The notes under the pieces are model-generated. The model searched no databases. It worked only from the letters and a program-made list of their open reading frames with translations, and was not told the DNA's origin. From positions 2,356,001 to 2,420,000 of the forward strand of contig NZ_JBGCCJ010000001.1 of NCBI RefSeq assembly GCF_041262565.1: a DNA stretch of 64,000 nucleotides, written 5' to 3'. This stretch comes from Leifsonia sp. EB41. Its GTDB lineage: Bacteria; Actinomycetota; Actinomycetes; Actinomycetales; Microbacteriaceae. Positions 2,862-62,004 of the stretch are shown here, piece by piece (within the stretch, counting starts at the first letter, position 1; each line of letters opens with the position of its first letter). Position numbers and translations under genes: made by a program.

Positions 2862-3248
2862 ATGGCCGACCTGCACGTTCACCCCGACCGCCTGGAGATC
2901 CACCTCACCAGGGCCGAGAAGGTGCTCTCCGTGCGTCGGGAGGATCTGGTGATCCCGCGCGAGAGCATCCGATCGGTCGCGATCACGGAGGACCCGTGGA
3001 TCTGGATCCGCGGCATCCGCGCCCCGGGAGCCGCCGTCCCGCTCACGCTCTCGGTCGGCACCTGGAAGTTCCACGGCGGCAAGGACTTCCTGCTCATCAA
3101 GGGCAAGCAGCGCGCCGCGGTCGTCGTCGACCTCGACGGCGAGGAGTTCTCGCGCGTGATCGTGTCGACGCCGCACGCCGCGAAGCTGGTGGAGGCGCTG
3201 CGCGTGGACGTGGGGCAGATCCCGGCCGACGGGGAGATCATCGACTGA
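2862..3248 (+). CDS. Small conserved-looking protein of unknown function
   Basis: This protein of 128 residues has no signal peptide or membrane segment. The composition is soluble and rich in beta-branched residues, with alternating segments such as SIRSVAITEDPWIWIRGI and TLSVGTWKFHGGKDFLLIKG that could form a compact beta-fold; a PH-like fold is possible but not demonstrated. The codon pattern is strongly GC3-biased and the frame is clean, so it is a real gene. CAGGAT ends 6 nt before the ATG, suggesting leaderless transcription. An AT-rich hairpin follows the stop codon. I do not recognise a function. Confidence 0.7.
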   Translation: MADLHVHPDRLEIHLTRAEKVLSVRREDLVIPRESIRSVAITEDPWIWIRGIRAPGAAVPLTLSVGTWKFHGGKDFLLIKGKQRAAVVVDLDGEEFSRVIVSTPHAAKLVEALRVDVGQIPADGEIID

Positions 3249-3266
3249 CGACGGCCGCGCGAGCGG

Positions 3267-3284
3267 GAAATGATCTTTCATTTC
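3267..3284 (+). terminator. AT-rich hairpin after the unknown gene
   Basis: GAAATGA, loop TCTT, TCATTTC: a perfect 7-bp stem, 18 bases after the stop codon at 3248. It is unusually AT-rich for this genome and lies at the edge of the less GC-biased DUF3800 patch. Confidence 0.45.
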
Positions 3285-3345
3285 AATTTGAGTCAGATGG
3301 GCGCGGCTCCGCTCGGGTGAACACCCCGTGCGGGAACCTGGGTCG

Positions 3346-4108
3346 ATGCTCCTTGCGTACATCGACGAATCGGGAAACACGGGTGACGTGGCTCTAGGAG
3401 GGGCCACCTCCCACTATGTGCTGGGCTGTGTACTCGTGGATGCCGCCAAGTGGTCGTCGGGCTTCGACGAGCTGGTCGATTTCCGGCGACGACTTCGCGA
3501 CGATCCGATTCGCCGTTCCGGTGCGGGCTGAAGTCAAGGCGAACTATTTGATCCGGGCCAGCGGTCCGTTTCGACCGCTTGCCCTGGCACCCGCCGAGCG
3601 TTCGCTTATCTATCGAGCGCATCTCGACATGCTCGCGAAGGTTGAAGCACGAGCTTTCGCAGTCGTCATCGACAAGCAGCAGAACGGCTTGAGCGGTCCG
3701 GCGTGCTTCGAGTTCGCGTGGACGACGTTGCTGCAGCGGCTCGAGCGCACGACCCATTACGAGAATCAGACGATGATGCTCATCCATGATGACGGCGAGC
3801 ATGATGCGGTCCGGCGGATCGTCCGCAAGGCACGCCGGTTCCTCACCGCTGGGGTCCTCGGCGGCGGAGGGACTGTTCGCGTCGATGCTAAGCGTTTCGT
3901 GGACGACCCGGTCGCGAGGGCATCGCACGAGAGTTATTGGATTCAACTGGCCGACCTGGTCGCCTACGCAGGTTTGCGCGCAATTGTGCCTCCGAGTCGC
4001 TCGGTCGCGGCGGTTGCCCCGCAAACGACGTGGATGCAGGTCGGAACTGCTGCTCACTCGGCCGTGAACCGCTATTCGGGCGGTCCTCCAGGGATCGTGT
4101 TCCGTTAA
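3346..4108 (+). pseudogene. DUF3800 domain protein, frameshifted
   Basis: Two overlapping frames together make one DUF3800 protein. The first frame (ATG 3346) gives MLLAYIDESGNTGDV, the acidic hallmark of the family, and runs to FDELVDFRRRLRDDP before a TGA at 3529. The second frame resumes with FAVPVRAEVKANYLIR and carries the later landmarks FAVVIDKQQ and the C-terminal ESYWIQLADLVAYA. The joint is near 3505-3508, where one extra base would restore a 253-residue product (the span is 763 nt, one more than a multiple of three). DUF3800 proteins have an RNase H-like fold and are often found in accessory regions; their substrate is unknown. Codon use is less GC3-biased than in the neighbours, suggesting acquisition by transfer. 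Sequencing error is the alternative to a real mutation. Confidence 0.75.
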
Positions 4109-16919: not shown

Positions 16920-18044
16920 ATGACCGACCCCGAGATCCACAAGGGCCTCGCCGGCGTCGTGGTGGACACCACGAACATCTCGTCCGTGAACCCGCAGACC
17001 AACTCGCTGCTGTACCGCGGCTACCCGGTGCAGGAGCTGGCCGCGAACTGCTCGTTCGAGGAGGTCGCCTGGCTGCTGTGGAACGGCGAGCTGCCGACGC
17101 CGGACGAGCTGGCCGGGTTCGTGAACCTGGAGCGCAGCCTCCGCCGCATGGACGACCGGACCCGCCGGGTGCTGGACGACATCCCGGCGTCCGCGCACCC
17201 GATGGACGCCCTGCGCACCGCGGTCAGCCAGCTCGGCGGCATGGACCCCACGCTGGAGCAGGAGAACGGCATCCTCGACCCGGAGCTCAACCACAGCCGC
17301 GCCGTCTACCTCTTCGCCCAGCTCCCGACGATCGTCGCGTACATCCAGCGCCGCCGTCGCGGGCTCGACCCGGTGGAGTCGCGCGACGACCTCGACTACG
17401 CGGAGAACTTCCTCTGGCTGACGTTCGGCGAGGTGCCGGACGACGTGGTCGTGAACGCCTTCCGCGTCTCGCTCGTGCTCTACGCGGAGCACTCGTTCAA
17501 CGCCTCGACGTTCACCGCGCGCGTCATCGCGTCCACCCTGTCGGATGTCTACTCGGCCGTCACCGGCGCCATCGGCGCACTGAAAGGCCCGCTGCACGGC
17601 GGCGCGAACGAGGCCGTCATGCACACCTTCGACGAGATCGGCAGCGCCGAGCGGGCCGAGGCGTGGCTGGACGACGCCCTCGCCGAGAAGCGCAAGATCA
17701 TGGGCTTCGGCCACCGCGTCTACAAGAACGGCGACTCCCGCGTCCCGACCATGCGCGCCTCCCTGGAGACGCTGGTCGAGCACTACGACCGCCAGGACAT
17801 GCTCGACCTCTACGACGCGCTCGAGAAGGCGATGGGCGACCGCAAGAACATCAAGCCGAACCTGGACTACCCGTCCGGCCCGGCCTACAACCTGATGGGC
17901 TTCGACACCGAGACCTTCACCCCGCTGTTCGCCGCGGCCCGCGTCACCGGCTGGACCGCCCACATCTTCGAGCAGTACGCCGCCAACTCCCTCATCCGCC
18001 CGCTCTCCCTGTACACCGGCCCCACCGAGCGCCACCTCCCCTAA
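16920..18044 (+). CDS. prpC: 2-methylcitrate synthase / citrate synthase family
   Basis: The 374-residue enzyme is a type II-like citrate synthase of the length usual for PrpC. It has GLAGVVVDTTNISSVN, LLYRGYPVQELA, LKGPLHGGANEAVM with the catalytic His, GFGHRVYKNGDSR with the second His, and the Asp-containing LDYPSGPAYNLMGF. Placed after prpD and prpB it most likely condenses propionyl-CoA with oxaloacetate to 2-methylcitrate; some activity with acetyl-CoA is common in this family. AAGGAG lies about 12 nt before the ATG. The operon ends at a 12-bp hairpin with a T-run. Confidence 0.93.
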   Translation: MTDPEIHKGLAGVVVDTTNISSVNPQTNSLLYRGYPVQELAANCSFEEVAWLLWNGELPTPDELAGFVNLERSLRRMDDRTRRVLDDIPASAHPMDALRTAVSQLGGMDPTLEQENGILDPELNHSRAVYLFAQLPTIVAYIQRRRRGLDPVESRDDLDYAENFLWLTFGEVPDDVVVNAFRVSLVLYAEHSFNASTFTARVIASTLSDVYSAVTGAIGALKGPLHGGANEAVMHTFDEIGSAERAEAWLDDALAEKRKIMGFGHRVYKNGDSRVPTMRASLETLVEHYDRQDMLDLYDALEKAMGDRKNIKPNLDYPSGPAYNLMGFDTETFTPLFAAARVTGWTAHIFEQYAANSLIRPLSLYTGPTERHLP

Positions 18045-18066
18045 CCCCAACTCTGTCTTCCGCAAG

Positions 18067-18120
18067 CAACGGAGGAGACCCGCCCCACCATGGGCCGGAT
18101 CTCCTCCGTTGACTGCTTTT
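18067..18120 (+). terminator. Hairpin with the repeated AACGGAGGAGA core, after prpC
   Basis: CAACGGAGGAGA (18067-18078) pairs perfectly with TCTCCTCCGTTG (18100-18111) around a 21-nt loop that can itself pair, and TTTT follows at 18117-18120. This is a plausible intrinsic terminator of prpC. The right side GGCCGGATCTCCTCCGTTG (18093-18111) recurs exactly at 61266-61284. Confidence 0.65.
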
Positions 18121-18138
18121 CCGGGGTCAGCGCGCCTC

Positions 18139-18149
18139 GATCTCCTCCG
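18139..18149 (-). repeat. Half-copy of the GATCTCCTCCG repeat at the thiolase 3' end
   Basis: GATCTCCTCCG on the plus strand lies just past the thiolase stop codon (minus strand). It matches the right arm of the elements at 18100-18111 and 61271-61283 but has no obvious paired left arm of its own. On the minus strand it could pair with or decay from the neighbouring element. Confidence 0.4.
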
Positions 18150-18152
18150 CTG

Positions 18153-19359
18153 TCAACGCCACAGCAGCAGCGCATCCCCCTGGCCGCCGCCACCGCACAG
18201 CGCCACCGCCGCCCGTCCGGACCCCCGCCTGGCCAGCTCATGCGCCGCATGCCCCGCCAGCCGTGCCCCCGACGCTCCAATGGGATGCCCCAACGCGATC
18301 GCCCCGCCGTGGATGTTGACCTTCTCCGCATCGAGGTCCAGGTCGGCCGTCGACTGCAGGGCCACCGCCGCGAACGCCTCGTTGATCTCCACCAGGTCGA
18401 GGTCGTCCACACTCCACCCGGCCCGCTTCAGCGCTGCGTTGATGGCGTTCGACGGCTGGGAGTGCAGGGAGTTGTCCGGCCCCGCGACCTGCCCGCTGGC
18501 CCCGACGACGGCGAGCCACTCCAGCCCGAGCCGCTCGGCGTTCTCCCGCGAGGTGAGGATCAGCGCCGCCGCGCCGTCGCTCAGCGGCGACGAGTTGCCC
18601 GCGGTGAGCGTCCCGCCCTCCGCGAAGCTCGGCCGCAGCTTGGCCAGCACGTCCACCGTCGAGTCCGGACGCACGCCCTCATCCACCGCCACGACGATCG
18701 GGTCGCCCTTGCGCTGCGGGATGCTGACCGGTGCGATCTCGTCCGCGAAGACCCCGGAGGCCGCCGCCGCGCCCGCGCGCTGGTGGGACGACGCAGCGAA
18801 CGCGTCCTGCGCCTCTCGCGTGAGGCCGAGCTTCTCCGTGTAGCTCTCGGTCGAGGCGCCCATCGAGATCTTGTCGAACGCGTCGGTCAGCCCGTCGTAG
18901 GCGGCTGTGTCGAGCGCTTCGAGCGAGCCGTAGGTCCAGCCCTTCCGCGAGCCGGGGAGGATGTGCGGGGCGTTCGTCATGGACTCCTGACCGCCTGCCG
19001 CGACCCACGGTCGCCTCGCCGGCGCGGATGAGTCGAGCGGCGTCGATCACGGCCGCCAGTCCGGACAGGCACACCTTGTTGATGGTCGTCGCCGGCACGT
19101 CCCAGCCGATCCCGGCGGCGATGGCCGTCTGCCTGGCCGGGTTCTGGCCCGCGCCGGCCTGGAGAACCTGCCCGAAGATCACGGTGTCGATGTCGGACGC
19201 CTGGAGCCCGGACTGCTCGATCGCCTTCCGAAGCGCGACCGTGCCGAGCTGCACGGCGGTCTGGCTCGCGAGCACGCCGGTCACCTTGCCGAGCGGGGTG
19301 CGCGCGGCGGACAGGATGACGACATCGTTCGGGCGGGGTTCGGGGATGCTGCTGGTCAT
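18153..19359 (-). pseudogene. Acetyl-CoA acetyltransferase (thiolase), frameshifted
   Basis: Two minus-strand frames join to one thiolase. The first (ATG 19359, AAGGAG 11 nt upstream) gives VVILSAARTPLGKVTG and the acyl-accepting Cys in INKVCLSGLAAV (about residue 97), then degenerates after LIRAGEATVG. The second resumes as QESMTNAPHILPGSRKG and carries VEINEAFAAVALQS, the GHPIG histidine motif and CGGGGQGDALL with the second catalytic Cys. One extra base in the CCC at 19004-19006 explains the break: the span is 1207 nt, one more than a multiple of three, and removing one base gives a normal 401-residue enzyme. It would catalyse acetoacetyl-CoA formation or cleavage. All catalytic residues are intact, so recent mutation or sequencing error is likely. 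Confidence 0.85.
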
Positions 19360-59670: not shown

Positions 59671-61188
59671 ATGAGTAACACCCACAGATCCAACGGACCC
59701 GAAGGCGAAGCGGAGGACGGCGGAGCGACCGCCACCACCACCGCCCCCACCGACTCCAGTCACGGGTTCTTCGGGCAGCCGCGCTCGCTCGCCAACATCT
59801 TCGGGGTGGAGATGTGGGAGCGGTTCTCCTTCTACGGGATGCAGGGCATCCTTCTCATCTACTTGTACTACAGCACGGCCAAGGGCGGCCTCGGGATCGA
59901 CCAGGCGACCGCTGCCGGCATCGTCGGCGCATATGGCGGTGCGGTCTACCTTTCCACGATCCTCGGTGCGTGGCTGGCGGACCGGCTGTTCGGTTCCGAG
60001 CGGGTGCTGTTCTGGAGTGCTGTCGTCATCATGGCGGGGCACATCTCTCTCGCCCTGCTGCCCGGTGTCGCCGGCGTGATCGTCGGTCTCCTCCTGGTCG
60101 CCGTCGGCAGCGGTGGCTTGAAGGCGAACGCGACGCGCATCGTCGGGACGCTCTACGACGAGCACGACTCCCGTCGTGACGCAGGGTTCTCGCTCTTCTA
60201 CCTCGGCATCAACCTGGGCGCGTTCTTCGGGCCGCTGCTGACCGGGCTGCTGCAGTCCACGCTCGGCTTCCACTGGGGCTTCGCGCTCGCCGCGGTCGGG
60301 ATGGCGATCGGCCTCATCCAGTACTCGCTGGGTCGCAAGCGCCTCCCCGATCTCGCGCGCGAGGTGCCGCACCCGCTGCCGCGCACGCGTCTCCCGCTGG
60401 TGATCGGGATCGGCGTGGCCGGCGTCATCGTCATCGTCGCCCTCGTCCTCACCGGGCTCATCAACGCGATCAACCTCGCCCTCTGGGTCATCGGCATCAC
60501 CATCGTCGCGGCGATCGCCTACTTCGTCGTCATCCTCAGCTCGAAGCTGCTGAGCGGCACGGAGCGCAGCCGGATCGTCGCCTTCATCCCGCTCTTCATC
60601 ACGAACGCGGCGTTCTGGTCGCTGTACCAGCAGCAGTTCACAGTGGTGACGATCTACTCCGACAAGCGGCTCGACCGGATGCTGTTCGGGTGGGAGTTCC
60701 CGGTCTCGTGGGTGCAGTCCATCAACCCGATCTTCGTCATCATCCTGTCCGGCGTCTTCGCGGCGATCTGGACCAAGTGGGGTGCGAAGCAGCCGTCGAC
60801 GCCGCTGAAGTTCGCGGCCGGGACGGTCGTCATGGGCCTGGCGTTCTTCCTCTTCCTGTTCTGGGTCGGCGGCGGAGCGAACAGCACGCCGCTGCTCGCG
60901 ATGATCGGCATCCTGCTCGTCTTCACGATCGCGGAGCTGCTGATCTCGCCGGTCGGCCTGTCGGCGTCGACGAAGCTGGCGCCGCACGCGTTCCAGGCGC
61001 AGATGGTGGCGCTGTACTTCCTGTCGGTGGCGCTGGGGACGGCGATGTCGGGGCAGCTCGCGAAGCTGTACTCGCCGGCGACGGAGGGCATCTACTTCGG
61101 GGTGATCGGCGCGGTCGCGGTGGTGATCGGCGTGGTGCTGGCGGTGATGAGTCCGTGGGTGCTGCGGATGATGCGCGGGGTGCGGTAG
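59671..61188 (+). CDS. POT/PTR-family peptide transporter
   Basis: The 505-residue proton-coupled oligopeptide transporter has about 14 helices. It shows the family motifs WERFSFYGMQGILLIYLYY and GAYGGAVYLSTILGAWLADR (proton and substrate site), and FSLFYLGINLGAFFGPLL (PTR2 signature). It imports di- and tripeptides. A 35-residue Ser/Thr/Ala-rich tail precedes the first helix. ATG 59671 is preferred to ATG 59662. The gene is followed directly by the large inverted-repeat element. Confidence 0.92.
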   Translation: MSNTHRSNGPEGEAEDGGATATTTAPTDSSHGFFGQPRSLANIFGVEMWERFSFYGMQGILLIYLYYSTAKGGLGIDQATAAGIVGAYGGAVYLSTILGAWLADRLFGSERVLFWSAVVIMAGHISLALLPGVAGVIVGLLLVAVGSGGLKANATRIVGTLYDEHDSRRDAGFSLFYLGINLGAFFGPLLTGLLQSTLGFHWGFALAAVGMAIGLIQYSLGRKRLPDLAREVPHPLPRTRLPLVIGIGVAGVIVIVALVLTGLINAINLALWVIGITIVAAIAYFVVILSSKLLSGTERSRIVAFIPLFITNAAFWSLYQQQFTVVTIYSDKRLDRMLFGWEFPVSWVQSINPIFVIILSGVFAAIWTKWGAKQPSTPLKFAAGTVVMGLAFFLFLFWVGGGANSTPLLAMIGILLVFTIAELLISPVGLSASTKLAPHAFQAQMVALYFLSVALGTAMSGQLAKLYSPATEGIYFGVIGAVAVVIGVVLAVMSPWVLRMMRGVR

Positions 61189-61190
61189 AG

Positions 61191-61292
61191 CCCGTCGGCA
61201 ACGGAGGAGATCGCGAGCGACACTCCGTGGCGTAGCAGTGAACGGAGGAGATCGGCGGCCGGTGTGGCCGGATCTCCTCCGTTGCCGACGGG
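61191..61292. repeat. Nested inverted-repeat element with the AACGGAGGAGATC core
   Basis: Outer arms 61191-61212 and 61271-61292 are perfectly complementary over 22 bp (core AACGGAGGAGATC / GATCTCCTCCGTT). A second copy of the left arm, AACGGAGGAGATC at 61241-61253, can pair with the same right arm, and the 17-nt region between them holds GGCC pairs, so two foldings compete. GGCCGGATCTCCTCCGTTG (61266-61284) is identical to the prpC terminator at 18093-18111. It lies 3 nt after the transporter stop codon. Confidence 0.7.
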
Positions 61293-61990: not shown

Positions 61991-62004
61991 CGCGCGGAGG
62001 CCGC

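Follow-up and report, generated by a model that had tools for sequence, protein, structure and literature searches.

The palindromes found at two sites of the window (the whole stretch of 64,000 nucleotides analysed here) are best explained as REP-like, non-autonomous mobile DNA of Leifsonia. They would belong to a system resembling that of REPs and RAYTs, with a gene for a Vsr-like nuclease (gene A) as partner, a reading to which a probability of about 0.57 is given. The AbiEi-type winged helix in the N-terminal part of the gene A protein would recognise the repeated word, its C-terminal Vsr-like (MTES_1575) nuclease domain would nick at or beside the word, and the nick would feed replication- or recombination-dependent copying into new gaps. 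The partnership between gene A and the repeats is correlative and has exceptions; judging from the sequences, gene A may drive the repeats rather than track them.

Each of the two sites holds one 84-bp unit made of three boxes. A 13-nt word (box1) is repeated 41 bp on (box2), and its inverse follows 30 bp further (box3). The forward consensus reads GTCGnn, AACGGAGGAGATC, a 28-bp linker ending in GCAGnn, AACGGAGGAGATC, 17 bp and GATCTCCTCCGTT, with a semi-conserved motif, CGACACGCCG, in the linker between the first two boxes. The features of the window are as follows.

18068..18151, minus strand: site 1, complete 84-bp unit with word W1 in reverse orientation, in the convergent gap between a citrate synthase gene, whose stop codon ends at 18044, and a thiolase gene lying on the minus strand from 18153 onwards
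18068..18080, plus strand: site 1 box3, AACGGAGGAGACC on the plus strand
18098..18110, minus strand: site 1 box2, GATCTCCTCCGTT on the plus strand, within the hairpin arm described earlier
18139..18151, minus strand: site 1 box1, GATCTCCTCCGCT on the plus strand
61200..61283, plus strand: site 2, complete 84-bp unit with word W1, forward-oriented and flanked by a POT-family transporter gene with its end at 61188 and by a MOSC-domain gene
61200..61212, plus strand: site 2 box1, AACGGAGGAGATC
61241..61253, plus strand: site 2 box2, AACGGAGGAGATC
61271..61283, minus strand: site 2 box3, GATCTCCTCCGTT on the plus strand, within the hairpin arm described earlier
61991..62004, no strand: unit-free convergent gap past the MOSC gene (14 bp in the window), from the comparison of orthologous gaps

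A preliminary description of these sites had reported a 19-mer, GGCCGGATCTCCTCCGTTG, as the right arm of a hairpin at 18093-18111 and 61266-61284. The arm is indeed identical at both sites and the hairpins are as described, and the third partial copy placed at 18139-18149 proved to be box1 of site 1 (18139-18151); two boxes of site 2 had been overlooked. With up to two mismatches, GGATCTCCTCCGTT has seven matches in the window compared with 0.74 expected, a number reached by none of 100 shuffles. Six of these make up the two clusters and the seventh is the 16S rRNA 3' end. A scan of the window using the geometry only retrieved exactly these two units, and none in five shuffles.

The preliminary description had left it to a genome search whether the palindrome recurs beyond chance, and many further copies were found. 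The genome from which the window was taken (the source genome) is a single contig of 4,162,015 bp, in which 85 boxes were counted when one mismatch was allowed, against 0 for the reversed pattern. The 31 loci extracted from it comprise 35 clusters, 30 of which contain a complete 41/30 unit, with 45 complete units altogether. A model built from 44 of these 45 units (of two overlapping units in L034, one was omitted) gave 102 hits in the source genome, the second highest number among 28 Leifsonia genomes, with at most 149 candidates scored per genome in all model counts. Based on a crude codon-usage gene caller, such that some long context gaps may hide missed genes, convergent gaps hold 20 of the 35 clusters, unidirectional gaps 11 and divergent gaps four, whereas 18% of gene pairs are convergent (P = 3e-7). 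Some units overlap predicted gene ends. The linker of 15 of the 45 units contains the motif CGACACGCCG (up to two mismatches), at one and the same offset in 12 cases, compared with 4% among shuffled linkers. The units are short imperfect palindromes, extragenic and high in copy number, which favour convergent and unidirectional gaps near 3' ends, as is the case for REPs. Among the options offered in the preliminary description, the REP-like repeat is supported by this copy number and location, and by the presence and absence of units between species.

An exact search for the hairpin pattern in the GTDB collection returned 21 stretches, all of them from Leifsonia (the window's own and near records were possibly excluded), and model hits over the 28 Leifsonia genomes ranged from 0 to 122. 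Outside the genus, ATCTCCTCCGTT occurs 0 or 1 time per genome in 32 genomes. The gap between the POT and MOSC genes holds a unit in G000, G020 and G024 and none in G008 and G010, where it is filled differently, while the convergent gap past the MOSC gene has one unit in G020 and G024 and none in the window, G008 or G010. In the citrate synthase gap, one unit is present in G000, G008 and G010, two in G020, and three complete units plus a degenerate fourth in G024; overall, this gap holds a unit in eight of the 28 genomes, with three words. As illustrated by these orthologous sites with and without a unit, units are gained, lost and tandemly amplified in gaps. The flanks of the orthologous gaps are too diverged for target duplications to be read. 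The largest W1 array among the loci whose gene context was determined consists of 22 boxes over 825 bp (L046 1931-2755, in G024).

Besides copy number and presence or absence between species, the word itself varies on one and the same geometry. G012 has 0 model hits, but AACTCCGGA forms 29 pairs there with the spacing of the units, and in most of them the linker contains CGACACGCCG or a close variant. Its AACTCCGGA elements lie in convergent gaps in 16 of 26 cases, and three of the 26 element gaps have both neighbours in common with one of the 35 gaps of the source genome. Across the 28 genomes, 66 AACTCCGGA pairs at unit spacing were found in eight genomes (control 0) and 24 AAGGGAGGA pairs also in eight (control 0). 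A scan based on geometry, run alongside a control spacing, gave 5 matches (control 1) over 180 kb of G012, 6 (control 3) over 200 kb of G003, 4 (control 2) over 220 kb of G013 and 2 (control 1) over 319 kb outside the genus; the 200 kb scanned in G004, gene A among them, yielded no unit (control 1). Compared with the control spacing, the scan is convincing on its own for G012 only. Related palindromes of irregular build, with the word TCCGTTCGAGCGGA, occur in G004. Another family of palindromes, ATTCGTGCCGAAT, is clustered in five Leifsonia genomes at the following positions.

L277 1185-1409 (G026): ATTCGTGCCGAAT cluster
L283 2284-2324 (G021): ATTCGTGCCGAAT cluster
L216 12537-13037 (G010): ATTCGTGCCGAAT cluster
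L238 2731-2771 (G003): ATTCGTGCCGAAT cluster
L053 361-401 (G002): ATTCGTGCCGAAT cluster

The Y1/RAYT transposase profile PF01797 had no match in any of the 28 Leifsonia genomes at E 0.001, compared with matches in 5 of 14 control genomes, and a RAYT was therefore rejected as the partner. One and the same gene, gene A, is bracketed in four genomes by clusters some 970 bp from each other. Since this gene was chosen through its bracketing units, the partner search was not exhaustive. Its product combines an AbiEi-type DNA-binding domain with a Vsr-like (MTES_1575) nuclease domain: AbiEi_4 matches above the Pfam cut-off, while MTES_1575 (34.5 bits versus a cut-off of 38.2) and DUF559 fall just below. 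Residues E185, D212, E222, D224, H229 and D238, which we take to be the candidate catalytic residues of the Vsr-like nuclease, are conserved at 96-100% in 53 gene A-type sequences (the query and 52 loci matching over 200 residues). The structure prediction, made with an alignment of two sequences, had a mean pLDDT of 54, and a sequence search of the PDB with the gene A protein returned nothing up to E = 1.

Gene A is found at one locus in 24 of the 28 Leifsonia genomes. A biotin carboxylase gene adjoins this locus in 23 genomes, and a Na+/H+ exchanger gene lies on the other side of gene A in 20, including G017, where the exchanger alone is adjacent. Exact 9-nt boxes of the words W1-W3 adjoin gene A in 22 of the 24 genomes, as opposed to none of the four in which the locus lacks the gene (Fisher, 7e-4, phylogeny ignored). 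The flanks in G006 and G007, whose words were judged by eye, are excluded from the 22, and the box counted in G004 is part of that genome's own word TCCGTTCGAGCGGA, 16 nt common to both flanks. By relaxed criteria, units are present on both sides of gene A in 15 of the 24 genomes. Read from the carboxylase, the left unit is constantly on the minus and the right one on the plus strand, with an extra overlapping call in G003. No such units were found at the six paralogue loci of gene A that were examined, at least six more such loci lying outside the sample. In the source genome, gene A is frameshifted near residue 250 and matches in two frames (C1:3389377-3390224), which reflects either decay or a sequencing error. 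Two other genes lie between boxes. A T5orf172/MUG113 gene (L033, about 2993-3523; C1:3084492-3085019) has W1 boxes on both sides, its end overlapping a box; it was considered as a partner and has one match in the source genome. A GNAT acetyltransferase gene (L014 2835-3404) lies between two W1 clusters, and its predicted 3' end runs into the second.

Low copy number goes with the loss of gene A. The four genomes without the gene at the locus, G018, G021, G001 and G026, have 4, 6, 7 and 1 model hits respectively, compared with 37-94 in related genomes. Kinship was taken from a tree of two loci, in which G018 is sister to G023 (94 hits, support 1.00), G026 is grouped with G009 and G015 (37 and 49 hits, support 0.95) and G021 with G001 is grouped with G014, G013 and G019 (52, 50 and 47 hits, support only 0.12). 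Three independent losses of gene A are probably the simplest reading of this tree. A one-sided rank test of gene A against copy number, uncorrected for phylogeny, gave P = 0.015. The source genome has a frameshifted gene A and yet the second highest repeat load of the 28. Furthermore, gene A is present with few model hits in G006 (2), G007 (1) and G004 (0), W1-W3 boxes being absent beside it in the first two. The word at gene A is the main word of the genome in G000, G020, G024, G008, G010, G025 and G022 (W1) and in G012 (W3). In G027, W3 is found at gene A despite 47 model hits versus nine W3 pairs, and in G016 despite 36 model hits and no W3 pair; in the remaining genomes the match is mixed. 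With G027 and G016, as well as G004, G006 and G007, as exceptions, the word and gene A are not strictly in step.

Among 32 related genomes outside Leifsonia, 19 carry an MTES_1575-type homologue of gene A. Exact words of at least 15 nt common to both 400-bp flanks were identified at 7 of 30 homologue loci versus none of 47 control genes (P = 1.4e-4 in a rank test). The controls were drawn from other genera of the family and are not paired with the homologue loci by genome, and the seven loci may include long direct repeats of other origin. Several of the shared words are palindromic by eye. In G045, which belongs to another family, CGACACGCCG is found as inverted pairs beside the gene and at two other sites within 100 kb (three pairs, control 1), bordered by the word seen at its gene or a close variant. 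For G036 and G033, 100-kb samples searched at one mismatch showed the words at the gene only, and neither the G054 words tested nor one of the two G045 words had copies elsewhere clearly above the control. Tandem units with CGTCCGGTTTCCGGACG or a near form are present on both flanks of the MTES_1575 homologue at L335 (G054), and a near-identical long hairpin on both flanks of the homologue at L313 (G038).

The preliminary description saw the hairpin as pairing a Shine-Dalgarno mimic with an anti-Shine-Dalgarno mimic, the last 18 bases of the right arm matching the 16S 3' end in 15 of 18 positions. This count is correct but holds for bases 1-18 of the arm; its final 18 bases match in 7. That the units are RNA elements, namely terminators, 3'-end stabilisers or a small RNA mimicking both sequences, is very unlikely, even though they stand close behind stop codons, mostly in convergent gaps, and W1 resembles the 16S tail beyond chance (11/13, P about 7e-4 against random words), as does W2. 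The resemblance is confined to this one box-word type: the other five of the seven words tested are at the random-word level, and the AACTCCGGA elements of other Leifsonia combine the same geometry and the same linker motif with a different word. In the 45 units of the source genome, box2 and box3 mismatch as often as they do with partners shuffled (P = 0.18), the same is true of the inner stem (P = 0.38), and box2 and box3 pair perfectly in eight. The covariation term was -0.02. An RNA mimic is therefore not supported: other words are carried on the same geometry and linker, and box2 and box3 show no covariation. Based on these results, Shine-Dalgarno/anti-Shine-Dalgarno mimicry as a general function and an RNA hairpin under selection were both rejected. 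The conserved part is the word as a DNA sequence, and nothing indicates that a hairpin RNA is kept. As for the suggested terminators, the position of the units is compatible with termination as a side effect, but no intrinsic terminator (GC hairpin plus U-tract) was found at 17900-18300, the region scanned around site 1. At gathering thresholds, Rfam detected nothing but the rRNAs in the window and no described RNA at the units.

Rather unlikely, too, is the possibility that the repeats are REP-like and moved by another enzyme or by recombination, with gene A merely lying in a repeat-prone gap. In its favour, the gap of gene A holds ATTCGTGCCGAAT palindromes in two of the four gene-less genomes (G026 and G021), the citrate synthase gap gathers units in its three words with no nuclease gene, and a minority word stands at gene A in G027 and G016. 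Against a bystander gene stand the boxes in 22 of 24 gene-bearing versus 0 of 4 gene-less genomes, the low copy number that accompanies its loss, the words shared by the flanks of homologues in other genera and the constant orientation of the flanking units. The AbiEi_4 domain of gene A might instead indicate a regulator whose own control sites are the boxes at the gene, the dispersed copies forming its regulon, as AbiEi antitoxins bind inverted repeats in promoters (accessible text of PMC7319586). This is highly improbable given that the copies lie mainly 3' of genes, with only four of 35 clusters in divergent gaps, and that copy number varies from 0 to 122 between species. Box1 and box3, as inverted copies at the unit ends, recall the terminal inverted repeats of a MITE moved in trans by the DDE transposase of an insertion sequence; the third, internal box at a fixed spacing makes this extremely improbable, and no target duplication could be read in the diverged flanks. 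REP-like mobile DNA with gene A as partner is the preferred reading. A wider version of it is put forward tentatively, at somewhat less than even odds: that Leifsonia and related Actinobacteria possess, apart from RAYTs, a REP system of a second kind, whose words are recognised and spread by an AbiEi winged helix joined to a Vsr-like nickase and diverge by lineage, while the geometry and CGACACGCCG persist, the linker even in another family.

Compared with known systems, the Leifsonia units are closest to REP/BIME/REPIN elements and their RAYT (TnpA-REP; 'REPtron'), as covered by the accessible parts of PMC3116915, PMC3733652 and PMC8266576. Both are short, palindromic, extragenic and present in many copies, often as oppositely oriented pairs, and located near 3' ends and in convergent gaps; RAYT, like gene A, is a single-copy, mostly vertically inherited partner gene with repeats in its flanks. 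Unlike in REP/RAYT, the candidate partner combines an AbiEi winged helix with a Vsr-like nuclease domain, Y1 being found in 0 of 28 genomes, and the units have three boxes at 41/30 with a linker. A GTAG (or CGTC) tag is absent; GCAG stands two bases before box2 and GTCG two before box1. By analogy, the likeness to REP-RAYT is one of working rather than of membership, as the Y1 enzyme and the GTAG tag were looked for and not found. According to the accessible text of PMC3733652, CGTC-tagged REPs are likewise palindromic repeats that 'apparently lack a dedicated transposase', but they have 8-9 bp stems and 4-5 bp loops and occur mostly in alpha-Proteobacteria; its main text, as far as accessible, mentions neither Leifsonia nor Actinobacteria. 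The antitoxins of AbiEi type IV toxin-antitoxin systems share the AbiEi_4 winged helix with gene A and bind inverted repeats (PMC7319586, accessible text), whereas the C-terminal part of gene A is nuclease-like and its neighbours are biotin carboxylase and Na+/H+ exchanger genes. The literature searched contained no report of these repeats, nor of MTES_1575/DUF559 proteins with dispersed palindromes, and the pairing of the Leifsonia repeats with gene A may be new, being described in none of the papers searched. With the MTES_1575/DUF559 Vsr-like nucleases, gene A shares the 34.5-bit match (cut-off 38.2) and the conserved acidic and histidine residues. The MTES_1575 REase is classed as a Vsr fold in the accessible part of PMC3710099, and a DUF559 Vsr-like protein of Caulobacter triggers a DNA damage response in the absence of a cytosine methylase (PMC12907096, accessible part). 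What spreads REP-like repeats without a Y1 transposase is called an open question in PMC3733652 (accessible text). With a candidate non-HUH partner, natural losses of it and related species that use other words, this question becomes directly testable in Leifsonia, and if the preferred reading is true, a role would be given to a nuclease family that 19 of the 32 related genomes from beyond Leifsonia carry.
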